Translations under genes and position numbers: made by a program
Notes under the pieces: generated by a model
The model's input: only the letters and a program-made list of their open reading frames with translations
Told to the model about the DNA's origin: nothing
Databases searched by the model: none
DNA from: Prolixibacteraceae bacterium
Lineage (GTDB): Bacteria > Bacteroidota > Bacteroidia > Bacteroidales > Prolixibacteraceae
Assembly: GCA_019856515.1 (NCBI GenBank)
Contig: CP082230.1
Location: forward strand, 4,836,001 to 4,900,000
Length of the DNA stretch: 64,000 nucleotides
Reading direction: 5' to 3'
Part shown: positions 4,017-18,985 of the stretch, one piece after another
How the letters are laid out: each line of letters starts with the position of its first letter
How positions within the stretch are numbered: the first letter of the stretch is position 1

Positions 4017-4045
4017 GTCGATGCCATAAAATAGAACAAAAAGCG

Positions 4046-4098
4046 AAAATACGATATGAAAGAGAGAGACGATAGATCACTCTTTTATGTCGTATTTT
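4046..4098. terminator. Bidirectional terminator between feoAB and the sigma-factor operon
   Basis: Arms 4046-4064 and 4080-4098 (AAAATACGA... against ...TCGTATTTT) pair at 17 of 19 positions around a 15-nt loop, with A and T runs on the two outer sides. It sits between convergent genes and overlaps the last codon of the minus-strand gene. Confidence 0.75.
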
Positions 4099-4445
4099 TG
4101 TGTCATATACTTCATCACCACTTCGTTGAGGAAACTAACATATACTATCAGGAAAATAACAGAACCGATAACTACACCTTTGGAGACCAAAATCTCCTGT
4201 GTCGTAGAGATCTCATCAGGAGAACCAAACAGAAATGCAGCCACACCAATAAGCAACAACATACCGATAAATAAACACTGACCTCCCCAATGTTTAAAGA
4301 AAAGTTTCCAACTCTCCTTCGAAACCGCTTTTTGGGTCACACGGCTCGCAAAGTTAGATGGCAAAACCATCTTATTCTTACTCTCATTAAATGTCATCGA
4401 TATCAACTGATCGATCTCTCTATTTTGATCTTTTATCTCTTTCAT
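4077..4445 (-). CDS. Small two-TM membrane protein coupled to an ECF sigma factor
   Basis: A 122-residue protein of unknown family. The N-terminal ~50 residues are charged and helical (DQLISMTFNESK), followed by two hydrophobic segments at about 55-72 (FIGMLLLIGVAAFLFG) and 88-105 (GVVIGSVIFLIVYVSFL). The start codon overlaps the sigma-factor stop as ATGA (4442-4445), so the two are translationally coupled. By position and topology it could be the membrane anti-sigma partner: a short cytoplasmic N-terminal segment with a membrane anchor. I see no zinc-binding HxxxCxxC motif, so this is inference from context only. Confidence 0.75.
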   Translation of the reverse strand: MKEIKDQNREIDQLISMTFNESKNKMVLPSNFASRVTQKAVSKESWKLFFKHWGGQCLFIGMLLLIGVAAFLFGSPDEISTTQEILVSKGVVIGSVIFLIVYVSFLNEVVMKYMTQKYDIKE

Positions 4446-5011
4446 ACCCTCTCTATTTTCAACCCCTTTTTATACCTCTTCTCTACAATCTCTTTCACCT
4501 TCGCTCTAGCCCTATTCAGATTCGACTTTACCGACCCTAACGGAATGCCCGTAATATCCACAATCTCCTCATAGGTAAACTCTTCGGTATAGAATAAATT
4601 CATCAACCCTTGATATTTAGGGGGTATTAGTGCAATAGCATTCGAAATAACCTCTCTCTTCTCCTCCGTCTCAAGTCTACTAAAAAAATTATCCTCCGCA
4701 AAATGAGATTCATTTTCATTTGAAACCTCATCATATTCTACAAAATACACATGCCTCTTACGCATAAAATCCACCGAATACCTCCATGCCACAGAAGCAA
4801 TCCACGTAGACAACTTCGACGCTTCCCTGAATGTGCCGATTTGCTGGTAGATTTTGATAAAGATATCTTGAGCCACATCCTCTACATCCGAAGCGTGTAC
4901 CCCCATCTTCCATATCATATGAAAAACCAGCTTCTGGTACTTGTTGACCAAAAACTCGAAGGCATGCCCATTTCCTCTCTTTATCTGTATTACAAGCGTT
5001 TTATCATCCAT
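4442..5011 (-). CDS. ECF-type RNA polymerase sigma factor
   Basis: A 189-residue sigma-70 family protein with only regions 2 and 4. Region 2 is seen in AFEFLVNKYQKLVFHM and VEDVAQDIFIKIY (region 2.2) and STWIASVAWRYSVDFMRKR (2.3-2.4). Region 4 is seen in ALIPPKYQGLMNLFY and YEEIVDITGIPLGSVKSNL, the recognition helix-turn-helix. It is the first gene of a two-gene operon with the membrane protein that overlaps its stop codon. The target regulon is not visible; the divergent side is the repeat tract beginning near 5040. Confidence 0.93.
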   Translation of the reverse strand: MDDKTLVIQIKRGNGHAFEFLVNKYQKLVFHMIWKMGVHASDVEDVAQDIFIKIYQQIGTFREASKLSTWIASVAWRYSVDFMRKRHVYFVEYDEVSNENESHFAEDNFFSRLETEEKREVISNAIALIPPKYQGLMNLFYTEEFTYEEIVDITGIPLGSVKSNLNRARAKVKEIVEKRYKKGLKIERV

Positions 5012-5237
5012 AACATTTAGAAGACGAAAAAGATATCCTTAAGGTTTCAAAACAGCTAAACTTTTTTTAATAATAATCAAAAAAAACCTTTCCCCACTCC
5101 AATCCACACCTTTCTCCTCCTCCAAACAGCCCCCCAAACATAACCTACAACCCAACACCACCTCCTACCATCCCCAACGCCATATTTCCCTTTCTCCAAC
5201 ACCATGCCTTTCTATAGGATTACAAGCTACCTTCCCC

Positions 5238-5455
5238 TGCCTTTCCCCCAACTTAATCCATCCCTAATCCGTCTTTAAACCGTCCCTAACCCGTCCTTTG
5301 TCCATGATTCCTCCATCATTGATCCATGGTTCAGTCATCAAAAACCCCGAAATCGATGGACAAACCATGGAGGAACCATGGCTGAACCATGGACAAAGGA
5401 CGGATTAAGGGCTTATTAGGGATGGATTTAAGACGGGTTAAGTCAGGGGAAGGTC
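5238..5455. repeat. Large imperfect palindrome rich in CCATGG motifs
   Basis: The left half (about 5238-5340) contains CCCCCAACTTAATCC, GTCCTTTGTCCATG and GATCCATGGTTCAG. The right half (about 5355-5453) carries their approximate reverse complements, CTGAACCATGGAC, AAAGGACGG and GGGTTAAGTCAGGGG. Short CCATGG palindromes recur inside it. The surrounding 5040-5580 stretch holds no gene that I can support. It is the leftmost part of the palindromic tract that continues to 7400. Confidence 0.6.
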
Positions 5456-5588
5456 GCATGAATGCATGAGGAAAGTATAATTACAGTGATTTAAAAACAG
5501 TATATTTAAAATCACTACGAAAAATAACCCAGACAGAGTTTAATTTACACTACCACGGATCAATGGACCAGCTTGATTTTCATGGATC

Positions 5589-6171
5589 TTTTTGATGCAA
5601 TGAATTTTAATGTTTCAATATTCCCTGAAAGGGAAACCGAACTTAGCCCAATGGTGTAATGTATATGAAGTGCTTTAGCTCTGAATATAAAATGGAGCCT
5701 TGGGTAGTATGTTGCTCCACCAACCATGGGCTGAAGGCCTGGCCCTGTTATCGAGGTAGAATTGTTATTGAATATGGTATAATGTTTTGGGCCAGGCTTT
5801 CAGCCTTTGATGTTGGATGGGTATTGTTTACCCAAGGCTCCATCCGATATAATGCGCTACTGCGCATTATGTGGATTCCACCGTTGGGCTAGGTTCGGTT
5901 TCCCTTTCAGGGAAAGTTGAAGAGTGGTGTTATGGTTGAGGTTTCCCTCTCGTGCCAAGGTATTGGCACAAACTAAGCATTATTTGTTGTGGAATGGATG
6001 ACATTGTTGTGTGGTGGTTTGTGCCAATTCATTGGCACGCCTTGCGCCTAGGGTTGATGTATGGTTGCCGAGTTGGAGTTCAGTGTTTCCTGTGTTTGAG
6101 ATTATTACGGCTTAGGGTTGTTGTGTACGAATGGAACACCTATGATACTGATGTAACGGGCTATTTCGGAT
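5589..6171. repeat. R1 palindromic repeat, copy 1
   Basis: First of three direct copies of a long repeat that starts TTTTTGATGCAATGAATTTT. The first ~330 bases form nested inverted repeats: an outer arm (TCCCTGAAAGGGAAACCGAAC, in the right arm as GTTCGGTTTCCCTTTCAGG), a middle arm GGAGCCTTGGGTA/TACCCAAGGCTCC and an inner arm around GGCTGAAGGCCTGGCCC. A second hairpin built on GTGCCAAnnnnTTGGCAC follows (about 5952-6035). The open frames across it show no family resemblance and no conserved start, so I treat it as non-coding. Confidence 0.8.
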
Positions 6172-6689
6172 TTTTTGATGCAATGAATTTTAATGCTTCA
6201 ATATTCCCTGAAAGGGAAGCCGAACTTAGCCCAATGGTGTAATGGTATATGAAGTGCTTTAGCTCTGAATATAAAATGGATCCTTGGGTAGTATGTTGCT
6301 CCACCAACCAAGGGCTGAAGGCCTGGCCCTGTTATCGAGGTAGAATTGTTATTGGATATGGTATAATGTTTTGGGTCAGGCTTTCAGCCTTTGATGTTGG
6401 AGGAGTATTGTTTACCCAACGATGGAATCCCTTTCAGGGAAAGTTGAAGAGTGGTGTTATGGTTTGTGTTTCCCTCACGTGCCAATGAATTGGCACAAAC
6501 TAAGCATTATTTGTTGTGGAATGGATGACATTGTTATGTGGTGGTTTGTGCCAATTCATTGGCACGCCTTGCGCCTAGGGTTGATGTATGGTTACCGAGT
6601 TGGAACTCAGTGTTTGAGATTATTACGGCTTAGGGTTGTTGTGTGCGAATGGAACACCTATGATACTGATGTAACGGGCTATTTCGGAT
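6172..6689. repeat. R1 palindromic repeat, copy 2 (internally shortened)
   Basis: Direct copy of the preceding unit with very high identity. It lacks about 65 bases of the right outer arm, including the ATAATGCGC hairpin: the text jumps from TTTACCCAA to CGATGGAATCCCTTTCAGGG. The GTGCCAATGAATTGGCAC hairpins are retained at about 6479-6565. Confidence 0.8.
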
Positions 6690-7113
6690 TTTTTGATACA
6701 ATGAATTTTAATGCTTCAATATTCCCTGAAAGGGAAGCCGAACTTAGCCCAATGGTGTAATGTATATGAAGTGCTTTAGCTCTGAATATAAAATGGAGCC
6801 TTGGGTAGTATATTGCTCCACCAACCAAGGGCTGAAGGCTTGGCCCTGTTATCGAGGTAGAATTGTTATTGAATATGGTATAATGTTTTGGGTCAGGCTT
6901 TCAGCCTTTGATGTTGGAGGGGTATTGTTTACCCAAGGCTCCATCCGATATAATGCGCTACTGCGCATTATGTGGATTCCACCGTTGGGCTAGGTTCGGT
7001 TTCCCTTTCAGGGAAAGTTGAAGAGTGGTGTTATGGTTTGTGTTTCCCTCACGTGCCAATGAATTGGCACGCCTTGCGGCTAGGGTTGATGTATGGTTGA
7101 TGCAAGGTAATTA
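6690..7113. repeat. R1 palindromic repeat, copy 3
   Basis: Third copy, with the complete nested hairpin: outer arms 6723-6757 and 6980-7014 (32 of 35 paired), middle arms 6795-6807 and 6930-6942 (13 of 13), inner arms about 6830-6846 and 6890-6906, and a small ATAATGCGC/GCGCATTAT hairpin at 6950-6971. The 3' part is shortened and runs directly into the R2 module. Confidence 0.8.
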
Positions 7114-7397
7114 TAGTCACGGATTCAATGGATAAGGCGGATTGACAAGAACCACTAAGACACTGACGGGGTCAAAGCGCAGGGATGGGACAGCTGCTGG
7201 GAATGGGGTGTTGCCGCTCGGCATCGTGTGTCAACCCTACCATCGAGCAACTTGCCCGTGATGCAACTTACGCTACGCAGATGAATACTACGGTTGTCGC
7301 TCTCTTGTGGTACGATGCCGAGCGGAGCTCAGCGTTCCCAGCGGTTGCGATTACGATTGCTGAAACGAGGCGATATAGTCACGAATTCAATGGATAA
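7114..7397. repeat. R2 hairpin module, left copy flanking the defence island
   Basis: GC-richer than its surroundings. It opens with TAGTCACGGATTCAATGG (7114) and closes with a near-identical TAGTCACGAATTCAATGG (7374-7391). Between them GCTGGGAA...CCGCTCGGCATCGT and ACGATGCCGAGCGG...TTCCCAGC form another long inverted repeat. The same module occurs three times at 17503-18470, on the other side of the island and in the same orientation. Confidence 0.8.
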
Positions 7398-7478
7398 AAC
7401 GATGATTTCGAACGTTTATTTTTGTTCATAAAATCACACATACAACGTTGTGAAACTTTACATCAAATCATTAATTTT

Positions 7479-7687
7479 ATGGATAAGTATTATGTGAATA
7501 AGAATGCACAGTTCAATGGAGATCACTCTTACATAAGAGTGATTGTTCACGTCTTCCAAATGTCGATAATTGTTTGAGCTTGGGAGAACATTATACATGT
7601 ACAAGTGCAATTAGTGTAGCGAAAGTAAAAGGCTATACAACAGCCGATGGTTGTTATTACTGTTGTAAAGCTTGTCACACGAGTTAA
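7479..7687 (+). pseudogene. Frameshifted small Cys-rich protein
   Basis: The ATG at 7479 opens MDKYYVNKNAQFNGDH. The frame is then lost near 7523-7530, and the neighbouring frame continues LHKSDCSRLP, CLSLGEHYTC and ADGCYYCCKACHTS to a TAA at 7685-7687. The joined product (about 69 residues) resembles a small Bacteroidota protein family that begins YYVN...NGDHEVH and ends GCYYCSKxCHT; this match is from memory. One missing base accounts for the break. It is followed by a near-perfect terminator, which supports it having been a real single-gene unit. Confidence 0.6.
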
Positions 7688-7688
7688 T

Positions 7689-7733
7689 TAAAATTTATCA
7701 GCGAATATGATACGTATTCGCTGATGAATTTTA
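7689..7733. terminator. Rho-independent terminator after the Cys-rich pseudogene
   Basis: Arms 7689-7707 (TAAAATTTATCAGCGAATA) and 7715-7733 pair at 18 of 19 positions around a 7-nt loop, with AT-rich ends. It could also serve the abiH fragment arriving from the opposite strand. Confidence 0.75.
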
Positions 7734-7773
7734 ACGTGGTTTTTATTAATCAGCTTATCATGTAAATAAATTA

Positions 7774-8594
7774 TTACAATTTAAAGAGGCGTTGGTTAAA
7801 ACAAACAAATATTCTGTCTTCCACCTCATTATTTTTGATTGCATCCATAAGTTTCGCTTTATCATTCTTATATTCACTCCTATAATGTCTTGTTTGACTA
7901 TTAATGATATTCATTTGTTCGTTTGTTTTGTACGAGTATAATATGATAATACACTTTTTATTTTTATTTAGATGTTCACCGATATACTCCCACCACCTTT
8001 TATCGGTTGCTCCGAGTGAAATGCCAAAAATGCAAATTATTTCGGAATCGGATATCTTTCCCAAAATAATGTTGTCTGATCCAGTATCTGACTCAACATT
8101 CTGTGACTCTTTCACAATTGCACTTAAGATATCTGGATCTTTTTGAAATTTGGTGTTTAATATTTGACTTGGATCATTTACCCCTAATATAGCATTGCGT
8201 TTTATTTTACCATGTATATGGTTGACTGTTCTGAAGTGGTATCGCCCAAAGGAATTACTATGGTTAGATGAACCTATTGGAATCAATTTATCAATATTAT
8301 TGGTGTAATTGAAAGTAATTATATCTATATTCTGTTTCTTGCTTTTATCGTCTTTGTATATACTTATTTTATCTCTTAGAATCGTTCTTTCAGAAAACCA
8401 CTCTTCAGGACTAATGAAGTTGTTGATAATTTTGGCATTAGGTCTTGTTTGTGAGTTAAATTCTTCATCTACAATCTCTAAATATTTCATGAGATGAAGG
8501 TGAATATCATCGATTATAGTCAGATATTCTATTTTATCAACTTTATTGGAATATCCTCCTAGGGCTAATTCTAAATCAGACCAATTGAATTTAC
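7774..8594 (-). pseudogene. abiH: AbiH-like abortive infection protein, C-terminal part (split by IS66)
   Basis: The 3' part of a gene whose 5' part lies at 10254-10427. Read on the minus strand from the insertion point it continues NWSDLELALGGYSNK and HLHLMKYLEIVDEEF, then 238 residues with FNYTNNIDKL, HIHGKI and IFGISLGATDKRWW, which are typical of AbiH-family phage-exclusion proteins. When the IS66 element and one target copy are removed, the two parts join in frame to give a 328-residue protein, a normal length for the family. The ATG at 8490 could start a truncated product, but that would lack the N-terminal GNGFD motif. Confidence 0.85.
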
Positions 8595-10253
8595 GTAACT
8601 ACTCAGGTTCTTCAGATAGGTTTTAACCGACAAAAACTTCAAATACGTTGATTTGGTGTACAATGTTGATAAATAACAATGTATTTGTTGATTACTTTTA
8701 GTTGTTATCTTTTCTATTTTGACCATAAGAATAGATCTTTGCAGGCATGAATAAAGTTGATCGTTTAGAAAAAGAAAACAAGGCATTAAAAGAGCAAGTA
8801 CAATCTTTACTGGCAAAATTAGACATTGTTATGTCGGAGGTAAGAGCTTTGTCAGAAGAAAATGCGATGCTTCATGCTAAGATTAAGACTCTTGAAGATC
8901 AACTATCACGTAGCAAGAAAAATAGTGGTAATAGCAGTTTTCCTCCATCTAGAGATTTATCAACAGTAAAGAAGAACCAATCTCTTCGCAAGAAATCTAA
9001 TAAAAAATCAGGAGGTCAACTTGGTCATAAAGGCATGACTTTATTTCAAGATGCCACACCGACCGATATCGAATCTCATCATCCTTTAGCTAAGTGTAGT
9101 TGTGGAAATAGACTGAATCCTGAGGATGCTAGGTTGCTATGCAAGCGTCAAGTTTTTGATATCCCCCCTGTTATTGAACCTATATGTATTGAGCATCGTC
9201 TTTATGAGAATAGATGCAGTTGTGGACAAATCCATAAAGGAGCTATGCCATCCAATGTTAATGCACCAGTTCAATATGGTCCCAACATACGTTCGCTAAT
9301 TCTTAGTCTGCATATAGAGCACTATATCCCTTTAAATCGGATTAGTTCGCTAGTAGAAGAGCTGACTTCCTATAAAATAGGAGATGGAACTATTGACAAT
9401 ATTTTAAAACATGCAGAAAAGGTATTCACTCCCCTATATGAATCTCTACGTCAATCTATTGAAGATGCCAATATAGTTGGATCTGATGAAACAGGTTGTA
9501 AAATAGATGGCAGTAAAGGATGGATGTGGGTTTGGCAAAATTATGAACTAACTTTTATCACAGCACATAGATCTAGAGGGTATAAAGTTGTGGAAGAAAA
9601 TTTCAAAGATGGATTTACTAATGCTACTTTAGTAAGTGACTGCTATGCTTCTCAACTAAAGACCCCTGCCAAACATTATCAACTATGTCTAGCTCATTTA
9701 CAACGCGAATTAATCTACATAAAGCAACAGACCAATAATAGATGGGCACAAGATATATTAGATCTCTTTTCAGAAGCCATGAAATTAAAACGGGAAGCTG
9801 AAGAAAAAGATTTCCCACTAGATAAGGAAGCATCATTTAAGACCAAATTATTAGAACTTCTGAATATCGACATAAATGACGATCAGCTCGATGAAATCAG
9901 AACATTACGACAACGATTAATAAAGAAAATCGATAGTGTGTTTACTTTCTTAAATCATTATGAAGTACCGTTTGATAATAATGCTTCGGAAAGAGCAATG
10001 CGTAACATCAAGGTAAAACAGAATGTGTCTAAGGGATATCGCACAGAAGAAGGGGCGCAGAGGTATGCCATGTTGCGATCTATAACCGACACATTAAAGA
10101 AACAAGGAAAGAGTGTTCTGAACATGATCGCATATTGGCTATCATGCAATAATGTTAACTTAAGCTGGGAATAGATAATTTTGAAAGTTATCTTCTTGAA
10201 GCTCTATTTAAAATCTAATAGAGGCTAAACTATAATACTACCTGAGTAGTTAC
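8595..10253 (+). mobile_element. IS66-family insertion sequence (single-transposase type)
   Basis: A complete 1659-bp element. Its ends are inverted repeats GTAACTACTCAGGT (8595-8608) and the reverse complement at 10240-10253. It is flanked by a perfect 8-bp target duplication GAATTTAC (8587-8594 and 10254-10261), the duplication length known for IS66. It carries one transposase gene and no tnpA/tnpB accessory ORFs, as in the ISBst12-like branch. Intact ends and transposase suggest a recent, possibly still active, insertion into abiH. Confidence 0.93.
8747..10174 (+). CDS. IS66 family transposase
   Basis: A 475-residue transposase. The N-terminus is a leucine-zipper-like coiled coil (KENKALKEQVQSLLAKL), followed by a KNSGNSSFPPS segment, a Cys-rich zinc-finger region (CSCGN, RCSCGQ at about 115-165) and the DDE core. 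Candidate core residues are the Asp in VGSDETGCK (about 247), the Asp in LVSDCYAS (about 300) and the Glu in FDNNASERAMRNIKVKQNVS (about 412). The length is slightly short but complete for the family. The frame is intact and the element has clean termini, so the protein is probably functional. Confidence 0.95.
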   Translation: MNKVDRLEKENKALKEQVQSLLAKLDIVMSEVRALSEENAMLHAKIKTLEDQLSRSKKNSGNSSFPPSRDLSTVKKNQSLRKKSNKKSGGQLGHKGMTLFQDATPTDIESHHPLAKCSCGNRLNPEDARLLCKRQVFDIPPVIEPICIEHRLYENRCSCGQIHKGAMPSNVNAPVQYGPNIRSLILSLHIEHYIPLNRISSLVEELTSYKIGDGTIDNILKHAEKVFTPLYESLRQSIEDANIVGSDETGCKIDGSKGWMWVWQNYELTFITAHRSRGYKVVEENFKDGFTNATLVSDCYASQLKTPAKHYQLCLAHLQRELIYIKQQTNNRWAQDILDLFSEAMKLKREAEEKDFPLDKEASFKTKLLELLNIDINDDQLDEIRTLRQRLIKKIDSVFTFLNHYEVPFDNNASERAMRNIKVKQNVSKGYRTEEGAQRYAMLRSITDTLKKQGKSVLNMIAYWLSCNNVNLSWE

Positions 10254-10427
10254 GAATTTACTACTATCTTCATTGGATATAAAATTAGAAATACTAGATC
10301 TCAATTTTGTTATTTCTTCAGAGGGATTGTCTTTAAGCTTTGTGTAGTAGTTATAGAAATCGTTATAAGAGGTTTTAAGACCTAGCTGAAGGTCAAAGCC
10401 GTTACCGAGGATGTATAGAATATTCAT
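10254..10427 (-). pseudogene. abiH: AbiH-like protein, N-terminal part (split by IS66)
   Basis: Encodes MNILYILGNGFDLQLGLKTS and continues to residue 58, ending ...SKF exactly at the IS66 boundary. The GNGFD motif is the AbiH N-terminal signature. Codons end precisely at 10254, so removing the element and one 8-bp duplicate joins it in frame with the C-terminal part ending at 7774. In the present sequence translation runs six residues into the IS end and stops at 10230. Confidence 0.85.
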
Positions 10428-10579
10428 AAGCGTAATAACTTTTGGTCTATGTCGATAAAGATAACGATTTTGAATGACTCTATTATATTTTAATTATTTT
10501 TATCCTTACGATTATATTATTTGAAGGTGAGGGGCTGGCAATAACGATAATATCGGTTGAGGTGAATGTATAAGTTTAG

Positions 10580-10744
10580 ATAAAAGATATAGACAGAGAT
10601 CATTTTATTTATGACCTCTTGTTGGCTTATAGTGCTTCTAAAGCAACGATTTCGAAGATCAAGTATTCTGAAAGATATGATTTCTGTGATAATGTATCTT
10701 CTTATAAGGTTGTAGAAAAGGATGATTTAGATATATTATCTTAA
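10580..10744 (+). pseudogene. Remnant of a type IIG restriction-methylation enzyme (N-terminal piece)
   Basis: An open stretch reading DIDRDHFIYDLLLAYSASK, then ATISKIKYSERYDF and ending DDLDILS before TAA (10742-10744). The FIYDLLLAY...KATI core resembles the N-terminal region of Eco57I-like type IIG enzymes (usually FIYDLLLAYGLPKATITRL, recalled, not searched). It is preceded by a stop, has no start codon and lacks the rest of a >1000-residue protein, so it is a scrap. The rest of 10428-10580 is AT-rich and featureless. Confidence 0.5.
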
Positions 10745-10805
10745 TACGTATGATTATATCAAGTAGGAGGAGAGAGAATTAGGAATGGAAACTTGTCCGT
10801 CGTAA

Positions 10806-10964
10806 ATATTCTCTAAAATAAAACAACCATATCTACTTCTTCAAGAACAAGAGACGATAGCCTCATTTCTATCGAAGATCGACCAGCAGTTGGTTGCATT
10901 AGATGGACCGATTGAAGAGAGTGAAAGATTAAAAAAAGGGTTATTGAAGCAAATCTTTGTATAA
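10806..10964 (+). pseudogene. hsdS C-terminal remnant 1
   Basis: The open frame reads KIKQPYLLLQEQETIASFLS, then KIDQQLVALDGPIEESERLK and KGLLKQIFV before TAA. This is the conserved C-terminal end of type I restriction specificity subunits (P..EQ..IA.FLS.ID..I, then KKGLLQ.MFV). There is no start and no target-recognition domain upstream. It marks where an hsdS gene once ended, upstream of the coiled-coil gene at 11069. Confidence 0.7.
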
Positions 10965-11068
10965 TCATTTTGTATAAAGAAAACATAAACTAAAGGTTGA
11001 TTTCATTTGAAATTGACCGTATTAATTAAATCTAACCATGTAATTGATCAAACTAATCTAATTAGACT

Positions 11069-12562
11069 ATGGAGGAACAAATTGACTACCTTAACAACGA
11101 AAGAGTTTTACTTTGGAAAGAGATCGAAGAGATTAAGAATGAACGAGATCAACTCAGGTTGGAAATCGTAAAGATAAATGAAGAGTTAGTAAAGACTTCA
11201 GATGATTACATTAAAGACGCAAGGAGGGATGTTAGCAATACAACACGATCTCTAAATAATGCAAAGGCTAAAGTTAAGGAGATTGAGGCGTTGTTTGAAG
11301 ATGTAGATCTTCAAAAGGTTGAAATAGAAGAGTATAAAGAAAATATCAAAGATCTATTAGATACATCAGAGGAAACATTAGGCTCGATTAAAGAGTTAAA
11401 GGATTGTAATCAATCGATATTTGATGAGTTTAATCAACGTATTGTAGAAGTTAAAGAAACAATTGAATTTGTTGAGAATTACTTATCGGATCATCCTGAT
11501 TTATCTGAGGAGTTGGAGTCTCTTAAAAAGAAAGAAGATGAATTAGATCAAGCTCATAACAAGTCACTTACTCTACAGAAGTCTATTTCAAAGGTCAAAA
11601 ATGAAATTGATAAAGTGAAATTTGAGTTGTTTGGTTTTGAAGAAGAGGATGAGAGTGGTGAAGTGAAGACTCATGAAGGAACTGTTGATGAGTTAAAGAC
11701 AGCATATGATGAATTGAAGAATACAAAGGATTCGTTGCAAAAAGATATAAAGAATACAATTAAAGAATCAAGTGAATCAATTAAACAGTTTAATGATAAC
11801 AATGATACCGAGTTTAAACGTTCGTTAGAAGGATGGAATAAGGAGGCAACGGATGCGAAAGATCAAATTAAAAAACTACTTCCGGAAGCTCTTACTGTAG
11901 GTTTAAGTCATGCGTATTCTGAGAAAAAGAAGTCGGAGGAAAAAAATGAGAATAAATTGCGTTGGCAGTTTATTGGTGGAATTTTTCTTATGATTCTTGT
12001 TTCATGCATTCCATTTTTTGTGAGTTATGATTCATTTAAAAATGGTGTTCCATTGGTAGATGTGATTCAAAGGTTGCCGCGATTAACTTTAGCTATTCTC
12101 CCTCTTTATATACCCGTGATGTGGATCACTTATTCTGCAAATAGAAAACAGAGTTTGGCAAAAAGACTTATTGAGGAGTATTCTCATAAAGAGTCATTAA
12201 GTAAAACATTTGAAGGTTTATCTACTCAAATTTCGAAACTCGATGATGATGTAATAAGTAAAGAGTTGCGTAATAAATTATTATATAACCTTCTTGATGT
12301 AAGCTCTGAGAACCCTGGTAAATTAATCTCAGATTATAATAAAGCAGATCACCCTGTAATGGATGCACTGGACAAGAGTGTAAAATTAGCCAATGCAGTA
12401 GATAGGTTAAATAAGTTTCCAGGGTTAAGCAAAGTAAGTGAAATGATTCATAAACACTCTAAAGATTTATTGTCAGAGGAGAGTGAAAAGATCGAAAAGG
12501 GAATGTCTCTTGTTAATGATGAGAAAGAGGACGAAGATGAGGGGGGCGAAAAGGAGTCGTAG
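11069..12562 (+). CDS. Coiled-coil two-TM membrane protein in a restriction locus
   Basis: A 497-residue protein that I cannot assign to a named family. Residues 1-290 are almost continuous charged heptad-like helix (LNNERVLLWKEIEEIKNERD onward), predicting a long coiled coil. Two hydrophobic segments follow at about 308-325 (FIGGIFLMILVSCIPFFV) and 343-362 (LTLAILPLYIPVMWITYSA). Then comes a conserved-looking cytoplasmic tail with RLIEEYSHKESLSKTFEGLS and a Glu/Asp-rich end. No signal peptide. It lies between two hsdS C-terminal scraps and ahead of TIR-like and hsdR genes, all on the plus strand, which suggests a defence role at the inner membrane. Codon use is AT-rich like its neighbours. 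The function is unknown. Confidence 0.85.
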   Translation: MEEQIDYLNNERVLLWKEIEEIKNERDQLRLEIVKINEELVKTSDDYIKDARRDVSNTTRSLNNAKAKVKEIEALFEDVDLQKVEIEEYKENIKDLLDTSEETLGSIKELKDCNQSIFDEFNQRIVEVKETIEFVENYLSDHPDLSEELESLKKKEDELDQAHNKSLTLQKSISKVKNEIDKVKFELFGFEEEDESGEVKTHEGTVDELKTAYDELKNTKDSLQKDIKNTIKESSESIKQFNDNNDTEFKRSLEGWNKEATDAKDQIKKLLPEALTVGLSHAYSEKKKSEEKNENKLRWQFIGGIFLMILVSCIPFFVSYDSFKNGVPLVDVIQRLPRLTLAILPLYIPVMWITYSANRKQSLAKRLIEEYSHKESLSKTFEGLSTQISKLDDDVISKELRNKLLYNLLDVSSENPGKLISDYNKADHPVMDALDKSVKLANAVDRLNKFPGLSKVSEMIHKHSKDLLSEESEKIEKGMSLVNDEKEDEDEGGEKES

Positions 12563-12565
12563 ACA

Positions 12566-12658
12566 ATGAAGACAGTTCAGCAGGTGGCCCCATTCGTTAA
12601 ACAGATTGAAGAGAGTAGTAGATTCAAAAAAGGGTTATTACAACAGATGTTTGTGTGA
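12566..12658 (+). pseudogene. hsdS C-terminal remnant 2
   Basis: A 30-codon frame, MKTVQQVAPF then VKQIEESSRFKKGLLQQMFV and TGA. The last 20 residues match the conserved end of type I specificity subunits and nearly repeat remnant 1 (EESERLKKGLLKQIFV). The two scraps flank the coiled-coil gene as direct copies, as expected if that gene had been inserted next to, or recombined through, hsdS. It begins 3 nt after the coiled-coil stop codon. Confidence 0.65.
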
Positions 12659-12697
12659 TTTCGGATTAATCGATATTAAAATTAATATATAAAGCTT

Positions 12698-13462
12698 ATG
12701 ATCTTTTTAAGTTACCATTCAAAGGATAAAGGTGTTGTTGTGCCTATTGCAGAACGTTTGATAAGGATTTATGGACAGGACAATGTGACCTGTGACTGTT
12801 GGTCGAGGCGACCAGGGTATGATTTGATTAAAAAGATGAAGAAAGGCATCGACAAAGATTGCTGTGTGTTTATCTTTTTAACTCCTAATAGTATGAAAAA
12901 CCCAATGGAGTTGGCGAAGTGGCAAAACGCGTTAGTGATATCAAGTCAGGAGCAATGTCTTACGATTCCTGTGATATCTAGTAAGGAAGAGGTGCCCATG
13001 TCTTTTCCTAGCGATTCTTATATCGATCTGAATTGTAGTGATAAGGAGATGGTAATGCTACAGATGATACAAGTTGTTAGAGATCATAGTGGGGAAGGGA
13101 GCTCTAATTTGGTTTATACTAAGGAGTATGTGTCGGATAGTGAGGTGATTATTACCCTTAAAGCTATGTGTCGCTTGGAAGAACCTTGTCGTTTTTTGTT
13201 TCTGACCACTTTAGGGCGGAATGAGATGAAGGTCACTCCGGTTGTTGAATCGATGTTGTTGTTGCGACATTTTATGGAAGATCTAGGGGATAACACGGAA
13301 AATATAAATGGCATGTTTGTAGAAATCAATGAAGAGGTTGATCCTGACTATCCTGTGAGGTTTAGGGTGAAGAATCCCAAAGGCGATAAGATCATTGTTA
13401 CGGGAATACTTCATCAAGAAAGCAATAGGGAGTGGTCAAGACTTCCTCTCGAAAGCAAGTAA
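12698..13462 (+). CDS. TIR-like domain protein of a defence locus
   Basis: A 254-residue protein. Residues 1-110 have the TIR/SEFIR layout: strand A IFLSYHSKDK, a helix, the CDCWSRRPGYDLIKKMKKGI segment (the BB-loop and helix region) and CVFIFLTPNSMKNP. Bacterial TIR proteins sense infection and cleave NAD+, or act as scaffolds. The usual catalytic Glu position, in a (W)xxxEWxxAL context, appears here as AKWQNAL, with Lys74 where Glu is expected and Glu71 three residues earlier, so activity is uncertain. Residues 125-254 are an unrecognised mixed alpha/beta region. The gene follows hsdS remnant 2 and ends 30 bases before the preferred hsdR start, suggesting co-transcription. Confidence 0.75.
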   Translation: MIFLSYHSKDKGVVVPIAERLIRIYGQDNVTCDCWSRRPGYDLIKKMKKGIDKDCCVFIFLTPNSMKNPMELAKWQNALVISSQEQCLTIPVISSKEEVPMSFPSDSYIDLNCSDKEMVMLQMIQVVRDHSGEGSSNLVYTKEYVSDSEVIITLKAMCRLEEPCRFLFLTTLGRNEMKVTPVVESMLLLRHFMEDLGDNTENINGMFVEINEEVDPDYPVRFRVKNPKGDKIIVTGILHQESNREWSRLPLESK

Positions 13463-13491
13463 TCATAAAATCAACCAATCCAATCCAAACT

Positions 13492-16400
13492 ATGAACTAT
13501 ACAACCAAAAGTACTCCTGATACGAAAGAGTTGGTGCGATCGCAGTTGCCAGCCTTAAAGCAGTTGGTGAAGATGGGCTATCGCTATCTGTCTCCTGTGG
13601 AGGTGATGGAGATGCGAGGCCATAAAACCAGCGGTGTGCTGCTGGAAGGGGTTTTGCTAGAGTGGCTTTCGGCCAATAATCATATTGTGCAGCGAGGGGA
13701 TCGATATGATTTTGAAGAGGGTAAATTACGAGAGGCGGTACGTCTTTTGAAGAATTTTAGTACGACCGAAGGATATATGAAAGCCAATGCGTTTGTGTAT
13801 GATATGCTTACGATGGGGGTTGATATTTCTCAAACGATAGAAGGGGATAGTAAAGACCGTCCGCTAAAATATATCGATTGGGACTGTTGGGAGAACAACG
13901 TGTTTCATGTGACCGAGGAGTATTCGGTGATGAGAGATGGAATGGATGAGACTTATCGCCCCGATATTGTGGTGTTTGTAAATGGTATTCCACTGGTGGT
14001 GATAGAGTGTAAGCGTCCGGGTGGCACAGGGGCTAAGTCGCCTATTACTTTGGGGATTGAACAGCATATACGAAACCAACAGCGCGATGGGATACGTAGC
14101 TTATACTACTATTCTCAACTGCTCTTTTCGTTGTCGGGAACAGAAGGGAAGTATGGCACTTCGGGGACGCCAGAGGAGTTTTGGAGTGTTTGGAAAGAGG
14201 TGTTTTTGAGTGTTGAGGAGAAACAGGCCTATTACCAAAAGTTGGATGCGCTGTTGTCACAACCCTTGGAGTTGCAGGAGGAGCGAGCCATATATGCCCA
14301 ACGTGAATATCTAAAAGAAGATAGTGGTACGGCAAGTGGTCAAGAGCGTTTGCTCTACCGTTTGATGCAACCTAAGGTCTTGTTAGATTTCATACGTAAT
14401 TATACTCTGTTTGATAAGGGAGTGAAGAAGGTCGCCCGTTATCAGCAGTATGCTGTCATTGGAGAGGCGATGTTACGAATAGAGCAATTGGACCGAAATG
14501 GACAGCGTCAAGGCGGGGTTGTTTGGCATACACAAGGGAGTGGTAAATCGCTTACGATGGTGATGTTGGCACAGTTGATTGCGAGAAGCAGTGATCTTAT
14601 TCCTCGTGCTAAGATTATCTTGGTGACGGACAGAGTGGATTTGGATAAACAGATCACTGACACTTTTAAGCATTGTGGGATAGATACCATTCGTGCAACC
14701 AGTGGTATTCATCTTGCTACGTTGGTTAAAGAGAAGAAGAAGGTGGTGATCACTACGATTGTCGATAAGTTTGAGAATGCAGTTCGTAATACGAAACCAG
14801 ATCCTTCGGAGGATGTCATTGTGATGATCGATGAGGCCCATCGAAGTCAATATGGCGGTCGCTTTGTGGAGATGCAACGTCTTTTTCCCAATGCCTGTTT
14901 CTTGGCATTTACGGGAACTCCCTTGATGAAGGAGGAGAAGACAAAGAATAAGTTTGGTAGTTATATCGGCAAGCCTTATACAATGGAGGCCGCTGTGGAG
15001 GATGGTGCGGTGGTCCCTTTGGTGTATGAAGGGCGTATGGTGCCTGTGATGGCAAACGACAAAGCATTTGAGGCACAAGTGGAGCGTGTGATTGGAGATC
15101 TTGATGAAGAGGTGCAGGTGGTGTTGCGTAATAAAGTGATGACGTTGAATCGTTTGAAAGCGACCGATTCGATGCTTCGAGAGATTGCCATGGATATTAG
15201 TGATCACTATGTGAAGAATATCCAGACTTCGAATCCGCAAGGGAAGGCCAAGGCACAGTTGGTGGCGCCTACAATTGCTACTGCTCTGAAGTATAAGAGA
15301 TATATTGAGGAGTATAGAAAAGTGACGTGTGCCGTGGTGGTGTCCGAAACAGACAATAGAGAAGGGGCGCAGAGTGTTTTAAGTGAGGGTGATCTAAAGG
15401 CAGAGGAGAAGGCATTTTTTAAGTGGGTGAAGGATGAGTTTGGAAATATGAAGAACTACACCGAAAGGATTACGGATAACTTTAAGAATGGGAACAAGCC
15501 AGAGATACTGATTGTGGTTGCGAAGTTGTTGACGGGTTTTGATGCACCATGTGATACCGCGTTGTATTTGTGTCGTAGTTTGAAGGAACATACGTTATTG
15601 CAAGCAGCAGCACGAGTGAATAGACTGTTTCCTGGGAAAGATTATGGCTTTATCGTGGATTATTGGGGTAACCTGAAGAATTGGCAGGAGGCCAAAGAGA
15701 TGTATACGGATTTAGGAGATCTGGAAAAGGAGGACTTGGAACGTATGGAAGGCACTCTTACTCCTGTGAATGATTTGGTGCGCGATTTGCCAGAGCGTCA
15801 TGATGAGTTGCTTCGATTGTTTGCTCAAAGAGGGGCAAAGGATCGGGATTATAATAGCTACTCTGAGCTGTTGGCAGAGGAGACATTAAGAGAGAAGTTT
15901 TATGATGCTTTGCTTGCTTTTTCTAAGTTGTTGAAGGTCTGTATGGCTTCGGTATATTTTGTGAATAACACTCCTGCTGAAGAGATCGAGAGGTATAAAA
16001 AAGATCTGAAGTTCTTTGTGGTGTTACGTAACGATGTACGTTTTCGTTATGGGGATGAGCACGACTATAGTTCATATGAATATCAATTGGAGCAGTTGAT
16101 GAATCAATATGTGTTACCAGAAGGGACTACCATTCAGTTGACTAAGAGAGTGAATTTGCATGATGATGAGGCTTATATGAAGGCTTATGAAGCACGTTAT
16201 GGAAAAGCAGGAAAAGCAGACGTTATTGCGAGTAAGATAAAGAAGAATATCTCCATTCGTATGGATGAAGATGCAGCCTATTATAAAAATATTGGTGAAC
16301 AGCTGAAAGAGTTGGTGGCTCTGTATAGAGCCGATCGAATTGGAGAGTTGGATTACCTAGACCAAGTAGAGCAGTTGGAGTCAGAGGTGAGAGAGAAAGA

Positions 16401-16755
16401 AGCGGGGATGGAGAGGGCCGACAATGGAGTTCCAAGTAGTGTAAGAGAACATCCGAGTGTCTTCCCTTTCTTCCGATTGAGTGAGGAGAATTGGAACGAT
16501 ATTCAAGATAGAGACGGATTTCATGCTGCATTGGCACTAAAGACAGAAGAGGTGGTGTTTGAGAAGATCTATTTTGACGATCAAGTGCGAGTGGATTGGG
16601 TGGGTAATATCGATATTGAAAATGCTTTTAAACAGCAGTTGGAAGATGTTGTGTTTGATCTGCTTGAACCTTATGAAGGGAAGCGTGTTGATTGGAATAG
16701 GATCGATGATTATATTCGAGAGGTTCTACGAAATGTGAAAGCAAATCATCAATAA
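13492..16755 (+). CDS. hsdR: Type I restriction enzyme R subunit (HsdR)
   Basis: Motor and nuclease subunit of a type I restriction-modification complex, 1087 residues from the chosen ATG. The PD-(D/E)xK nuclease is DIVVFVNGIPLVVIECKR at about residues 157-175. The SF2 translocase has Walker A TQGSGKSLT (about 346-354), the DEAH box IDEAHRSQYGG (about 446), motif III FTGTPL, and later LTGFDAP and AARVNR. An upstream ATG at 13432 would overlap the TIR gene by 31 nt; the ATG at 13492 is preferred because MNYTTK... matches the usual HsdR N-terminus and avoids the overlap. No hsdM is present and hsdS survives only as scraps, so any function would need partners encoded elsewhere. GC is higher than in the flanking accessory genes. 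Confidence 0.95.
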   Translation: MNYTTKSTPDTKELVRSQLPALKQLVKMGYRYLSPVEVMEMRGHKTSGVLLEGVLLEWLSANNHIVQRGDRYDFEEGKLREAVRLLKNFSTTEGYMKANAFVYDMLTMGVDISQTIEGDSKDRPLKYIDWDCWENNVFHVTEEYSVMRDGMDETYRPDIVVFVNGIPLVVIECKRPGGTGAKSPITLGIEQHIRNQQRDGIRSLYYYSQLLFSLSGTEGKYGTSGTPEEFWSVWKEVFLSVEEKQAYYQKLDALLSQPLELQEERAIYAQREYLKEDSGTASGQERLLYRLMQPKVLLDFIRNYTLFDKGVKKVARYQQYAVIGEAMLRIEQLDRNGQRQGGVVWHTQGSGKSLTMVMLAQLIARSSDLIPRAKIILVTDRVDLDKQITDTFKHCGIDTIRATSGIHLATLVKEKKKVVITTIVDKFENAVRNTKPDPSEDVIVMIDEAHRSQYGGRFVEMQRLFPNACFLAFTGTPLMKEEKTKNKFGSYIGKPYTMEAAVEDGAVVPLVYEGRMVPVMANDKAFEAQVERVIGDLDEEVQVVLRNKVMTLNRLKATDSMLREIAMDISDHYVKNIQTSNPQGKAKAQLVAPTIATALKYKRYIEEYRKVTCAVVVSETDNREGAQSVLSEGDLKAEEKAFFKWVKDEFGNMKNYTERITDNFKNGNKPEILIVVAKLLTGFDAPCDTALYLCRSLKEHTLLQAAARVNRLFPGKDYGFIVDYWGNLKNWQEAKEMYTDLGDLEKEDLERMEGTLTPVNDLVRDLPERHDELLRLFAQRGAKDRDYNSYSELLAEETLREKFYDALLAFSKLLKVCMASVYFVNNTPAEEIERYKKDLKFFVVLRNDVRFRYGDEHDYSSYEYQLEQLMNQYVLPEGTTIQLTKRVNLHDDEAYMKAYEARYGKAGKADVIASKIKKNISIRMDEDAAYYKNIGEQLKELVALYRADRIGELDYLDQVEQLESEVREKEAGMERADNGVPSSVREHPSVFPFFRLSEENWNDIQDRDGFHAALALKTEEVVFEKIYFDDQVRVDWVGNIDIENAFKQQLEDVVFDLLEPYEGKRVDWNRIDDYIREVLRNVKANHQ

Positions 16756-17472
16756 ATGAGTGAAAAGATAGCGTGGCAATGTGGAGGAAGAGAAGTCTCT
16801 GTGGAGGTAATACGGGGCAATAGAAAGCATGCAGGATTGGAAGTGGAAGTTTCGGGTGTTGTGCGACTGAAAGTTCCTGAAAAGGCTTCTATTGAGCAAG
16901 TAGAGAGGTTGTTGGAGAAGAAAAGAGATTGGCTGCGAAAGCAACTTAATGAGTTGGTGGATCAGCCTATGCCTCCATCGGTGAAACGCTATGTTAGTGG
17001 AGAGTGTTTTATGTTGTATGGCAAGAGTCTTCGCCTGAAGGTGAAGCCTATAAACTTTGAGATGGTGAAGCTAGAGGGAGGATATCTCACTCTTTATTTA
17101 GGAAAAGAGGCCACTAAAGCTCGTGCGGCACAGTTGGTGGATCGATGGTATCTGAATAGGGCAAAAAAGGATATCAGACCGATGTTTGAGGAGCAATGGA
17201 AACGATGTTGTCGAACTCTGGCTACGAATAAAGAGGTGACCATGGAGTTTCGTAAGATGGAAAGACGTTGGGGTAGTTGTAGTGTGGAAGGTAAGATTCT
17301 ATTGAATCCCTCTTTGGTTCAGGCTCCATTACATTGTATACGCTATGTGATTGTACATGAACTGTGTCATGTGAAGTATCATCACCATGGCCCTCAATTC
17401 TACGCTTTGTTGGATCGTCTTTTGCCTGATTGGAGGGTAAGTAAAAATGAATTGGATCGAATGGAGTTTTAG
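16756..17472 (+). CDS. YgjP-like (DUF45/M48-type) metallopeptidase
   Basis: A 238-residue protein with the zinc-peptidase motif HELCHVKYHHHGPQFY at about residues 201-216 (HExxH plus a downstream His), preceded by the family signature MERRWGSCS and LNPSLVQAP. Its ATG follows the hsdR stop codon with no gap, so it is translationally coupled to hsdR. YgjP-like proteins commonly follow hsdR in type I loci of many bacteria (recalled), where their role is unproven. It is the last gene before the right-hand R2 repeat array, which starts about 30 bases after the stop codon. Confidence 0.9.
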   Translation: MSEKIAWQCGGREVSVEVIRGNRKHAGLEVEVSGVVRLKVPEKASIEQVERLLEKKRDWLRKQLNELVDQPMPPSVKRYVSGECFMLYGKSLRLKVKPINFEMVKLEGGYLTLYLGKEATKARAAQLVDRWYLNRAKKDIRPMFEEQWKRCCRTLATNKEVTMEFRKMERRWGSCSVEGKILLNPSLVQAPLHCIRYVIVHELCHVKYHHHGPQFYALLDRLLPDWRVSKNELDRMEF

Positions 17473-17502
17473 TTTGGACCAGGGGAGAGGGATGACGTAT
17501 CA

Positions 17503-17879
17503 ATTAGCCACGGATTCAATGGATAAGGCGGATTGATAAGAACCGCTAAGACACGGACGGGGTCGAAGCGCAGGGATGGGACAGCTGCTGGGAATGGGGT
17601 GCTGCCGCTCGGTATCGTGTGTCAACCCTACCATCGAGCAATTTGCCCGTGATGCAATTTACGCTACGCAGATGAATACTACGGTTGTCGCTCTCTTGTG
17701 GTACGATGCCGAGCGGAGCTCGGCGTTCCCAGCGGTTGAGGTTTCCCTCTCGTGCCAAGGCATTGGCACAAACTAAGCATTATTTGTTGTGGAATGGATG
17801 ACATTGTTATGTGGTGGTTTGTGCCAATTCATTGGCACGCCTTGTGCCTAGGGTTGATGTATGGTTGATACAAGGTAAT
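17503..17879. repeat. R2 array right of the island, copy 1
   Basis: Opens TTAGCCACGGATTCAATGG and carries the same GCTGGGAA...CCGCTCGGTATCGT / ACGATGCCGAGCGG...TTCCCAGC inverted repeat as the left-hand R2 copy at 7114-7397. It also contains, at about 17741-17870, the GTGCCAA...TTGGCAC double hairpin found in R1, so R1 and R2 are mosaics of shared sub-modules. Confidence 0.8.
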
Positions 17880-18167
17880 TATAGTCACGGATTCAATGGA
17901 TAAGGCGGATCGACAAGAACCACTAAGACACGGACGGGGATCGAAGCGCAGGGATGGGACAGCTGCTGGGAACGGGGTGCTGCTGCTCGGTATCGTGTGT
18001 CAACCCTACCATCGAGCAATTTGCCCGTGGTAACCTACGCTACGCAGATGAATACTACAGTTGTCGCTCTCTTGTGGTACGATGCCGAGCGGTTGAGGTT
18101 TCTCTCTCGTGCCAAGGCATTGGCACGCCTTGCGCTTAGGGTTGATGTATGGTTGATACAAGGTAAT
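17880..18167. repeat. R2 array, copy 2
   Basis: Second direct copy, starting at TATAGTCACGGATTCAATGG. It is about 90 bases shorter than copy 1: the second GTGCCAA hairpin is reduced to a single GTGCCAAGGCATTGGCAC, and the right arm of the long hairpin lacks the GAGCTCGGCGTTCCCA stretch. Confidence 0.8.
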
Positions 18168-18470
18168 TATAGTCACGGATTCAATGGGTAAGGCGGATTG
18201 ACAAGAACCACTAAGACACGGACGGGGATCGAAGCGCAGGGATGGGACAGCTGCTGGGAACGGGGTGCTGCTGCTCGGCATCGTGTGTCAACCCTACCAT
18301 CGAGCAATTTGCCCGTGATGCAACCTACGCTATGCAGATGAATACTACGGTTGTCGCTCTCTTGTTGCACTATGCCGAGCGGAGCTCGGCGTTCCCAGCG
18401 GTTGTGGTTTCCCTCTCGTGCCAATTCATTGGCACACCTTGCGCGTTAGGTTGATGTATGGTTGCCGAGT
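18168..18470. repeat. R2 array, copy 3
   Basis: Third direct copy, ending in a GTGCCAATTCATTGGCAC hairpin (18419-18436) and TTGATGTATGGTTGCCGAG, which also ends the corresponding stretch of R1 copies 1 and 2. The following 18470-18598 holds no further repeat unit. Confidence 0.8.
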
Positions 18471-18545
18471 TTGGGGGTTGTGTTTTCAAGGGGGAGCTTG
18501 ATGTTTTTGAAATAAGTTTACTTTTTTTGAAACCTTGGAGGGGAT

Positions 18546-18568
18546 GTTTCCGTCCTATGGACAGAAAC
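18546..18568. promoter_or_regulatory. Short hairpin upstream of a small membrane protein gene
   Basis: GTTTCCGTCC and GGACAGAAAC pair at 9 of 10 positions around TAT, ending 31 bases before the ATG at 18599. It could be an operator, a leader hairpin or the terminus of the repeat tract. No promoter boxes are clear. Confidence 0.35.
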
Positions 18569-18598
18569 AAAGAATATAACATTTAATTATAGATAATT

Positions 18599-18985
18599 AT
18601 GGAAGATATTTTAATTCCTTTAGGTTTTTTCTTGATGACGTACAAGATCATTGATATCATTCTTAAATCGAAGAATAGAGGTCGTCTTTACAAGTTGCTT
18701 GCAGAGAAGCAGCTAAATGCAGGAGATGTGTCGGATGTGGTAAAATCGTTAGATCAAGTGACGGAGAATTTTACGGATAAGTGGGCTAGTTTGAAGTGGG
18801 CAGTGGTATCTATTTTCACTGGGATGGGACTGTTTTTAATTGATTATTTGAATCGTAATATGTATGATGGAGACCGATTTACATCACATCAAGCCTTTGG
18901 TGCTGTAGGAATTTTGTCGATTTCGGTTGGGCTAGGTTTTTTAGTCTATTTCTTGATTGTTTATTTGAGGCGTAATAAGGATTAG
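18599..18985 (+). CDS. Small three-TM membrane protein (DUF6249-like)
   Basis: A 128-residue protein with hydrophobic segments at about 5-22 (LIPLGFFLMTYKIIDIIL), 62-82 (LKWAVVSIFTGMGLFLIDYL) and 100-122 (FGAVGILSISVGLGFLVYFLIVY). The region between the first two contains a regular amphipathic KLLAEKQLNAGDVSDVVKSL helix. It resembles the small DUF6249 membrane proteins of Bacteroidota, which are often near ECF sigma factors, but this match is only by layout. It is a single-gene unit with a clear terminator downstream. Function unknown. Confidence 0.75.
   Translation: MEDILIPLGFFLMTYKIIDIILKSKNRGRLYKLLAEKQLNAGDVSDVVKSLDQVTENFTDKWASLKWAVVSIFTGMGLFLIDYLNRNMYDGDRFTSHQAFGAVGILSISVGLGFLVYFLIVYLRRNKD

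Follow-up and report, generated by a model that had tools for sequence, protein, structure and literature searches.

The closest described systems to the repeats considered here are the TIRtron/TIRYT elements, in which a tyrosine transposase is placed between terminal inverted repeats (PMC3733652; this and the other sources are cited from excerpts of their text). Our subject is two families of hairpin repeats, R1 and R2, which surround a block of defence-type genes in the window, the 64,000-nucleotide (nt) stretch of Prolixibacteraceae bacterium contig CP082230.1 that was analysed. A second point of comparison is subclass 1.2 of the TnpA-Y1 transposases, which carries the signature Y---Q--HH and, in Table 1 of PMC6006769, the motif DH[IV]H. 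In the available part of that source, no repetitive extragenic palindromic (REP) sequence is listed for the subclass, which is described as generally having no typical terminal structures; IS200/IS605 elements are reported there to insert into the lagging-strand template. With respect to neighbouring genes, intergenic arrays of small palindromic repeats have been proposed to raise their exchange in Neisseria (PMC3898611), and many strain-specific genes of the Pseudomonas fluorescens group lie in REP deserts (PMC3390384). A variable defence locus is described in PMC5398294, the available part of which names no such repeats. Our literature searches found no report of TIRtron or REP arrays bracketing exchangeable defence cargo.

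Hairpin repeats of the window and a Y1 transposase between R1 arms

The arrays of the window consist of the following features.

5559-7050, + strand: three R1 foldback units, with arms matching those around the Y1 transposase in L079
7114-7397, + strand: left R2 unit and the first 24 nt of a further unit (7374-7397); families D1, D4 and D8
17503-18464, + strand: right array of three R2 units and R1 pieces, from the repeat comparison

As proposed in the initial annotation, R2 copies of the same orientation bracket the cargo, with 7114-7397 on one side and three units within 17505-18409 on the other, a similarity far beyond chance. The best pair (7114-7352 and 17505-17743) shares 95% identity over 239 nt. 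The middle right-hand unit lies at about 17821-18092, and the unit at 18171-18409 reaches 77% in an ungapped comparison. Within the 61-nt core (family D4), the other three units are 92-98% identical to the reference. The opening 24 nt of R2 (family D8) are found just before the cargo (7374-7397) and again just after it (17503-17526), so the cargo interrupts an R2 unit. In addition, a 133-nt piece (6461-6593) is repeated in the right array at 17734-17866 with 95% identity, and the last two R1 units are spaced by 517-518 nt. The predicted fold of R1 (5559-5930) has a minimum free energy of -194 kcal/mol and that of the R2 hairpin core (7180-7352) one of -73 kcal/mol; in the predicted folds of 7180-7352 and 17571-17743, R2 consists of two inverted palindromes forming a single hairpin. 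Rfam returned nothing at gathering scores over the whole window.

An intact IS200-like Y1 transposase gene (4668188-4668679 of the genome carrying the window, termed G000; L079 6186-6680) lies directly between R1 arms, which match over 85 nt at 85% and over 123 nt at 71%. Its product matches PF01797 (E 9e-21) and contains DHLH, WQ and YILNQPNHH. It passes the NCBIfam IS200 cut-off (58.4 vs 55 bits) and fails the NCBIfam RAYT model (27.7 vs a cut-off of 80 bits). G000 holds one intact and two broken or partial copies of this gene: the second, broken copy (L090 3600-4140) has the same surroundings, with the layout judged by eye, and a partial third match lies between the two. Since R1 arms elsewhere enclose a Y1 transposase, R1 resembles TIRtron/REP elements.

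A match to the transposase was found in 222 of 393 genomes of the order. From the 30 best-matching loci, 23 were long enough for a paired-arm test with a threshold of at least 35 bits for inverted arms across the gene; one of them is G000's own, and in another (L168) the gene ends were set by length and lie about 100 nt off. Inverted arms were detected at 18 of the 23 loci. The controls gave 0 of 19 for ECF-gene loci, one more being too short to use, and 4 of 23 for flanks paired across loci. The Y---Q--HH signature occurs in 22 of the 23 testable loci (L154-L181).

R1 and its transposase possess the TIRtron features that were tested, namely an HUH-Y1 gene, flanking inverted repeats and dispersed arms. 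As in the TIRtron/TIRYT elements of PMC3733652, a Y1 HUH transposase lies between long, partly self-complementary inverted arms that are dispersed and clustered. The enzymes described in that excerpt are RAYT-like, whereas here the fit is to the IS200 model, together with the signature of subclass 1.2. With this subclass, as excerpted from PMC6006769, the transposase shares Y---Q--HH, WQ, its occurrence in Bacteroidetes and its few copies per genome; it differs in DHLH instead of DH[IV]H and in its inverted arms, present at 18 of the 23 loci and dispersed in G000, though not in the order genome G158. The transposase side may therefore also be new, as subclass 1.2 is described without REPs, within a limited literature search aimed at this point. 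R2 recalls REP, BIME and REPIN sequences with their RAYTs in its core of two inverted palindromes forming one hairpin and in an orientation that follows the chromosome arm. It departs from them in its mosaic units of about 160-280 nt and in an enzyme that fails the RAYT model. R2 is REPIN-like in anatomy, and its link to the transposase is by association only.

At least 111 R2 matches were obtained in G000, a count from the 40 of 87 first-look candidates that were scored; by eye, they group into about 23 places of the genome. Among the 140 genomes of the family that were searched, R2 was found in two, G000 and a relative, G001. The R1/R2 scan covered 34 stretches of G000, a non-random sample made up of the window, 23 stretches fetched for repeats or transposase and ten fetched for other reasons. 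Clusters were present in 24 of the 34 and in none of the ten; R1 alone matched in 19 of the 34. The repeats, their dispersal and the position of the transposase between R1 arms are direct observations. All 18 R2 matches of at least 100 nt, from eight scanned loci, follow the chromosome arm, being on the + strand at 4.0-4.9 Mb (14) and on the - strand at 2.2-2.3 Mb (4). The sign of the GC skew changes in parallel, with L071 near zero. Insertion into the lagging-strand template, of the IS200/IS605 kind, would explain this orientation.

Cargo differences at repeat-lined sites

The initial annotation had taken acn as the right-hand neighbour of the window block. This was not borne out, as the native neighbours are an ECF sigma gene and a DUF6249 gene.

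4442-5011, - strand: ECF sigma gene, native left neighbour; orthologues of 65% (G003) and 52% (G002), beside a DUF6249 gene in both
18599-18985, + strand: DUF6249 gene (Pfam PF19762), native right neighbour; homologues of 36% (G003) and 27% (G002), beside ECF sigma

G002 and G003 are genomes of the same genus. In G003, the gene order feoB, small gene, ECF sigma, DUF6249 and acn is uninterrupted; in G002, ECF sigma adjoins DUF6249, with feoB and acn together at another place. Compared with either genome, G000 thus has the block 5012-18598 in addition. At the threshold used, neither genome has R1 or R2 at the ECF/DUF6249 place. No acn and no close ECF match were found in G001, hence the window site has no counterpart there for comparison. 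The relatives found for this site are all empty ones, none with an alternative cassette. As a separate observation, the feoB-type and ECF-sigma genes (window 1647-5011) are adjacent in G000 and G003 and distant in G002, a rearrangement within the genus.

An integrase-driven island or prophage remnant would also produce an insertion as sharp as that seen relative to G002 and G003. We regard this origin of the window block as extremely unlikely: Pfam identified no integrase among the six larger open reading frames (ORFs) of 7774-17472 (smaller ones were not scanned), no tRNA gene lies in window 1-24000, the direct repeats bounding the block consist of R2, and R2 has no match in phage and plasmid collections.

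Lineage-specific content was found at five of the six array sites compared with relatives, the sixth being the 2.19-Mb site. Exchange of cargo, which the initial annotation had envisaged for the window segment, is suggested elsewhere, at the tsaD and 4.62-Mb sites; there, the flanks of G000 and G001 are near identical and the cargo differs. At the tsaD site, G000 carries a nuclease, a lipoprotein-like gene and a 247-aa gene, and G001 an outer-membrane protein, a 228-aa gene and two DUF4365-like genes. Right of the cargo, identity is 96-99.6% in 19 of the 20 500-nt bins and 91% in the remaining one, and the homology starts within a repeat. To the left, three bins across tsaD show 98-99% and 14 bins further left 71-88%. 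The repeats themselves are roughly 85-95% identical between the two genomes. G002 and G003 have neither the repeats, nor the cargo, nor the alpha-2-macroglobulin-like gene seen in G000 and G001. At the 4.62-Mb site, whose G001 side was pieced together from two contigs, the flanks are 97-100% identical and AbiH is common at 98%; a KAP NTPase in G000 stands against MmeI in G001, and a 242-aa gene is found in G001 only.

Different cassettes between the same conserved genes at these two sites resemble the mosaic or minimal mobile elements of Neisseria (PMC3898611, in excerpt), although repeat families, organism group and cargo are others. The near-identical flanks would fit incorporation by homologous recombination alone. 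The replacement flexible genomic islands of PMC4033161, likewise in excerpt, which are exchanged by homologous recombination, share the single site with different genes and the conserved flanks; here, by contrast, the site is lined by a transposon-like repeat family.

Between the arrays at 2.24 Mb, G000 has three genes, and the flank alignments of G001, G002 and G003 end about 60 to 330 nt apart, leaving the site empty. The 4.0-Mb site is empty in G003 and holds a different gene in G002, and R1/R2 are absent from it in both. At 4.02 Mb, the sequence can be read as a pair of cassettes that have common ends and are separated by repeats. The empty sites and the cargo differing between near-identical flanks were observed directly, and they suggest that repeat-lined sites are places of cargo gain and exchange. 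The AbiH/MmeI module is present at two different repeat-lined sites. Defence-type families near several arrays include AbiH, Abi_2, RhuM-like, AAA/DUF4276, RloB and DUF3584/JetC-like proteins, picked by eye from ORF starts; HsdS is also found, some 4 kb from its nearest array.

Cargo modules at several repeat-lined sites, and the transposase gene itself lying between R1 arms, could also be accounted for by composite transposition. The Y1 transposase would then mobilise, in the form of a single-stranded circle, the cargo flanked by two hairpin ends, and the arrays would function as ends of a transposon instead of as substrates for recombination. Neither a consistent target motif nor a clean end was noticed, without a systematic search for either, and only one of the three transposase copies in G000 is intact, the other two being broken or partial. 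Loops of 10 kb are moreover long for this enzyme class, which counts against the proposal. We consider it very unlikely.

Possible roles of the arrays in cargo turnover

We postulate, as a somewhat probable reading, that transposon-derived hairpin arrays act both as tolerant landing places and as recombination joints, alongside ordinary homology of the flanks. On this view, both families belong with the TIRtron/REP hairpin elements. R1 probably derives from an IS200/IS605-type element with a Y1 transposase through deletion of the loop, which would have left it non-autonomous; R2 would be a pair of inverted palindromes riding in R1's arrays, tied to the transposase by association only. The elements probably spread via single-stranded DNA at replication forks, and their arrays would have grown long at a restricted set of intergenic sites. 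Such arrays would tolerate insertion and supply portable direct homology, so that accessory cassettes, among them many defence genes, could be gained, lost or replaced there. Turnover would rely on ordinary recombination of the RecA type, some of it within the repeats and some within flanking genes. In the window, a block of repeats and cargo may have come between ECF sigma and DUF6249 and then decayed, as IS66 in abiH and the MmeI and HsdS scraps would indicate. Within this scheme, we infer two steps, transposition by the Y1 enzyme and repeat recombination as the route of exchange.

The earlier proposal of a recombination-based cargo platform is partly supported, by relatives without the cargo, by differing cargo at other sites and by the AbiH/MmeI module at two repeat-lined sites. 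It fails with regard to the predicted empty site keeping one R2 or R1 copy, which was not found, and much of the variation lies off the repeats. Scattering of R2 without exchange of cargo, named beforehand as the case against a platform, applies in part: R2 occupies about 23 places, some of them with lone copies and no evident cargo.

Several observations weigh against arrays serving as recombination joints. Neither exchange nor excision of the window's own 10-kb segment was seen. The empty sites keep no R1/R2 copy at the threshold used, and for this reason excision by repeat recombination was not seen. In the MmeI/KAP difference at 4.62 Mb, the inner junctions fall between genes and not in repeats. 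The transposase arms of G158 are not dispersed; both of their two matches lie at the gene itself, and these arms were rejected as a dispersed family. A locus from a rumen metagenome-assembled genome (L145, transposase at 43%, outside the 23 loci tested) has hairpins and no paired arms (17.5 bits). The G001 assembly, split into about 150 contigs, has a completeness of 77% and may be chimaeric, though its identity to G000 shifts several times inside one contig. Finally, the 4.73-Mb site (L076 5866-12846) has five tandem genes, separated by repeats and 92-95% alike, for a 316-aa lipoprotein-like protein that contains an FGE-sulfatase domain. As the gene stands at both ends of this array, homology between gene copies, and not the repeats, drove the amplification, and the array was rejected as proof of repeat recombination.

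A serious rival, in our view possible but doubtful, holds that the arrays are passive markers. Hairpins would pile up where they are harmless, around cargo brought by other means such as flank homology or phage-like and other elements, and would be idle in exchange. Further points against the joint role support this rival. Lone repeat units without evident cargo lie between ordinary genes in both G000 and G001. Cargo related to that of the 2.24-Mb site occurs in G001 (C89, C78) without R1/R2 in the 15-kb stretches read. In a 180-kb comparison of G000 with a G001 contig, 30 of the 120 G000 ORFs of at least 100 aa have no homologue; six of the seven G000-specific gene runs (totalling at least 200 aa each) lie away from R1/R2, with the tsaD run alone at arrays. 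At the tsaD site, the left edge of the 98% tract is upstream of tsaD, outside the repeats. Conversely, repeat positions coincide with the right-hand limit of the tsaD difference and with the ends of the cargo in the window, and the two cassettes at 4.02 Mb have shared ends and are separated by repeats. The REP deserts of Pseudomonas (PMC3390384, in excerpt), which hold strain-specific genes, imply that accumulation around cargo is not universal for such repeats; here the pattern is the reverse, with arrays coinciding with cargo.

A bolder extension of the joint role, which we consider unlikely, would be that, in one lineage of Bacteroidota, the foldback arms which a subclass-1.2 Y1 transposase has dispersed serve as exchange joints throughout the genome. 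Modules of defence and surface genes would then pass from one repeat-lined site to another through recombination in the arrays, as the cassettes of a system that needs no integrase. If hairpin arrays do act as common joints, long reads covering about 23 places in a single genome would suffice to measure the turnover of defence genes in these bacteria. This would bear on how such turnover proceeds where neither integrases nor plasmids take part.

Cargo of the window block and further observations

The cargo corresponds to the list in the initial annotation (AbiH, IS66, type IIG and HsdS scraps, coiled-coil protein, TIR, HsdR, YgjP), with refinements.

7774-8490, - strand: C-terminal part of AbiH, profile positions 120-258 of 260 (Pfam PF14253, E 3.3e-18)
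8593-10258, + strand, transposase ORF at 8747-10174: IS66-family copy (Pfam PF03050), 93% to a copy in L078
10317-10663, both strands: N-terminal scrap of AbiH (-) and 5' scrap of an MmeI-type gene (+), 78% to G001 L104 10229-10589
10874-10965, + strand: 3' scrap of HsdS (family D9, translations)
11069-12562, + strand: coiled-coil protein of 497 aa, membrane segments apparent by eye; weak SMC/JetC-like coiled-coil matches only
12568-12659, + strand: second 3' scrap of HsdS, 74% to 10874-10965 (D9)
12698-13462, + strand: TIR-domain protein (Pfam PF13676, E 4.1e-14)
13432-16755, + strand: HsdR, no HsdM beside it (Pfam, PADLOC, NCBIfam TIGR00348)
16756-17472, + strand: YgjP-type metallopeptidase (Pfam PF01863)

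The IS66 copy splits AbiH into a C-part (7774-8490) and an N-part from about 10317. The scrap termed type IIG is, more precisely, the 5' end of an MmeI-type gene, its L104 homologue being MmeI by Pfam. The scraps at 10874-10965 and 12568-12659 we take to be HsdS tails. With AbiH split by IS66, a 5' end of MmeI and two HsdS tails, much of the island is therefore decayed. PADLOC gave no match for the AbiH part or the TIR protein of the window, and no unassigned ORF of hsdM size is present within 7398-17502. The coiled-coil and TIR genes are positioned between HsdS scraps and an HsdM-less HsdR (11069-16755), and the listed TIR and HsdR ORFs overlap by 31 nt.

A third foldback repeat lies to the left of the R1 units.

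5223-5460, strand not assigned: foldback repeat, self-complementary (67%), unrelated to R1 and R2 in the comparison made

Its segment 5252-5454 is 87% identical to L077 11964-11762, and this copy (L077 11756-11964) lies near the second AbiH site.

Apart from the window block, a module of an amidase-like gene and a few small genes, identified by ORF starts, recurs at several repeat-lined sites of G000 and once in G001 (L070 4947-8180, L072 10639-12333, L080 7040-10359, L149 15606-18984, L187 6715-10114). Identity between G001 contig C1 and G000 4194-4375 kb alternates in blocks of about 70-88% and 94-99%, which suggests either that long tracts were exchanged recently or that the assembly is chimaeric. 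Window 39028-40612 matches L076 2559-4143 at 99.9% identity and looks like a recently moved element. The L076 segment contains a 482-aa ORF, and L190 (8863-10311) has an ORF whose start is the same.

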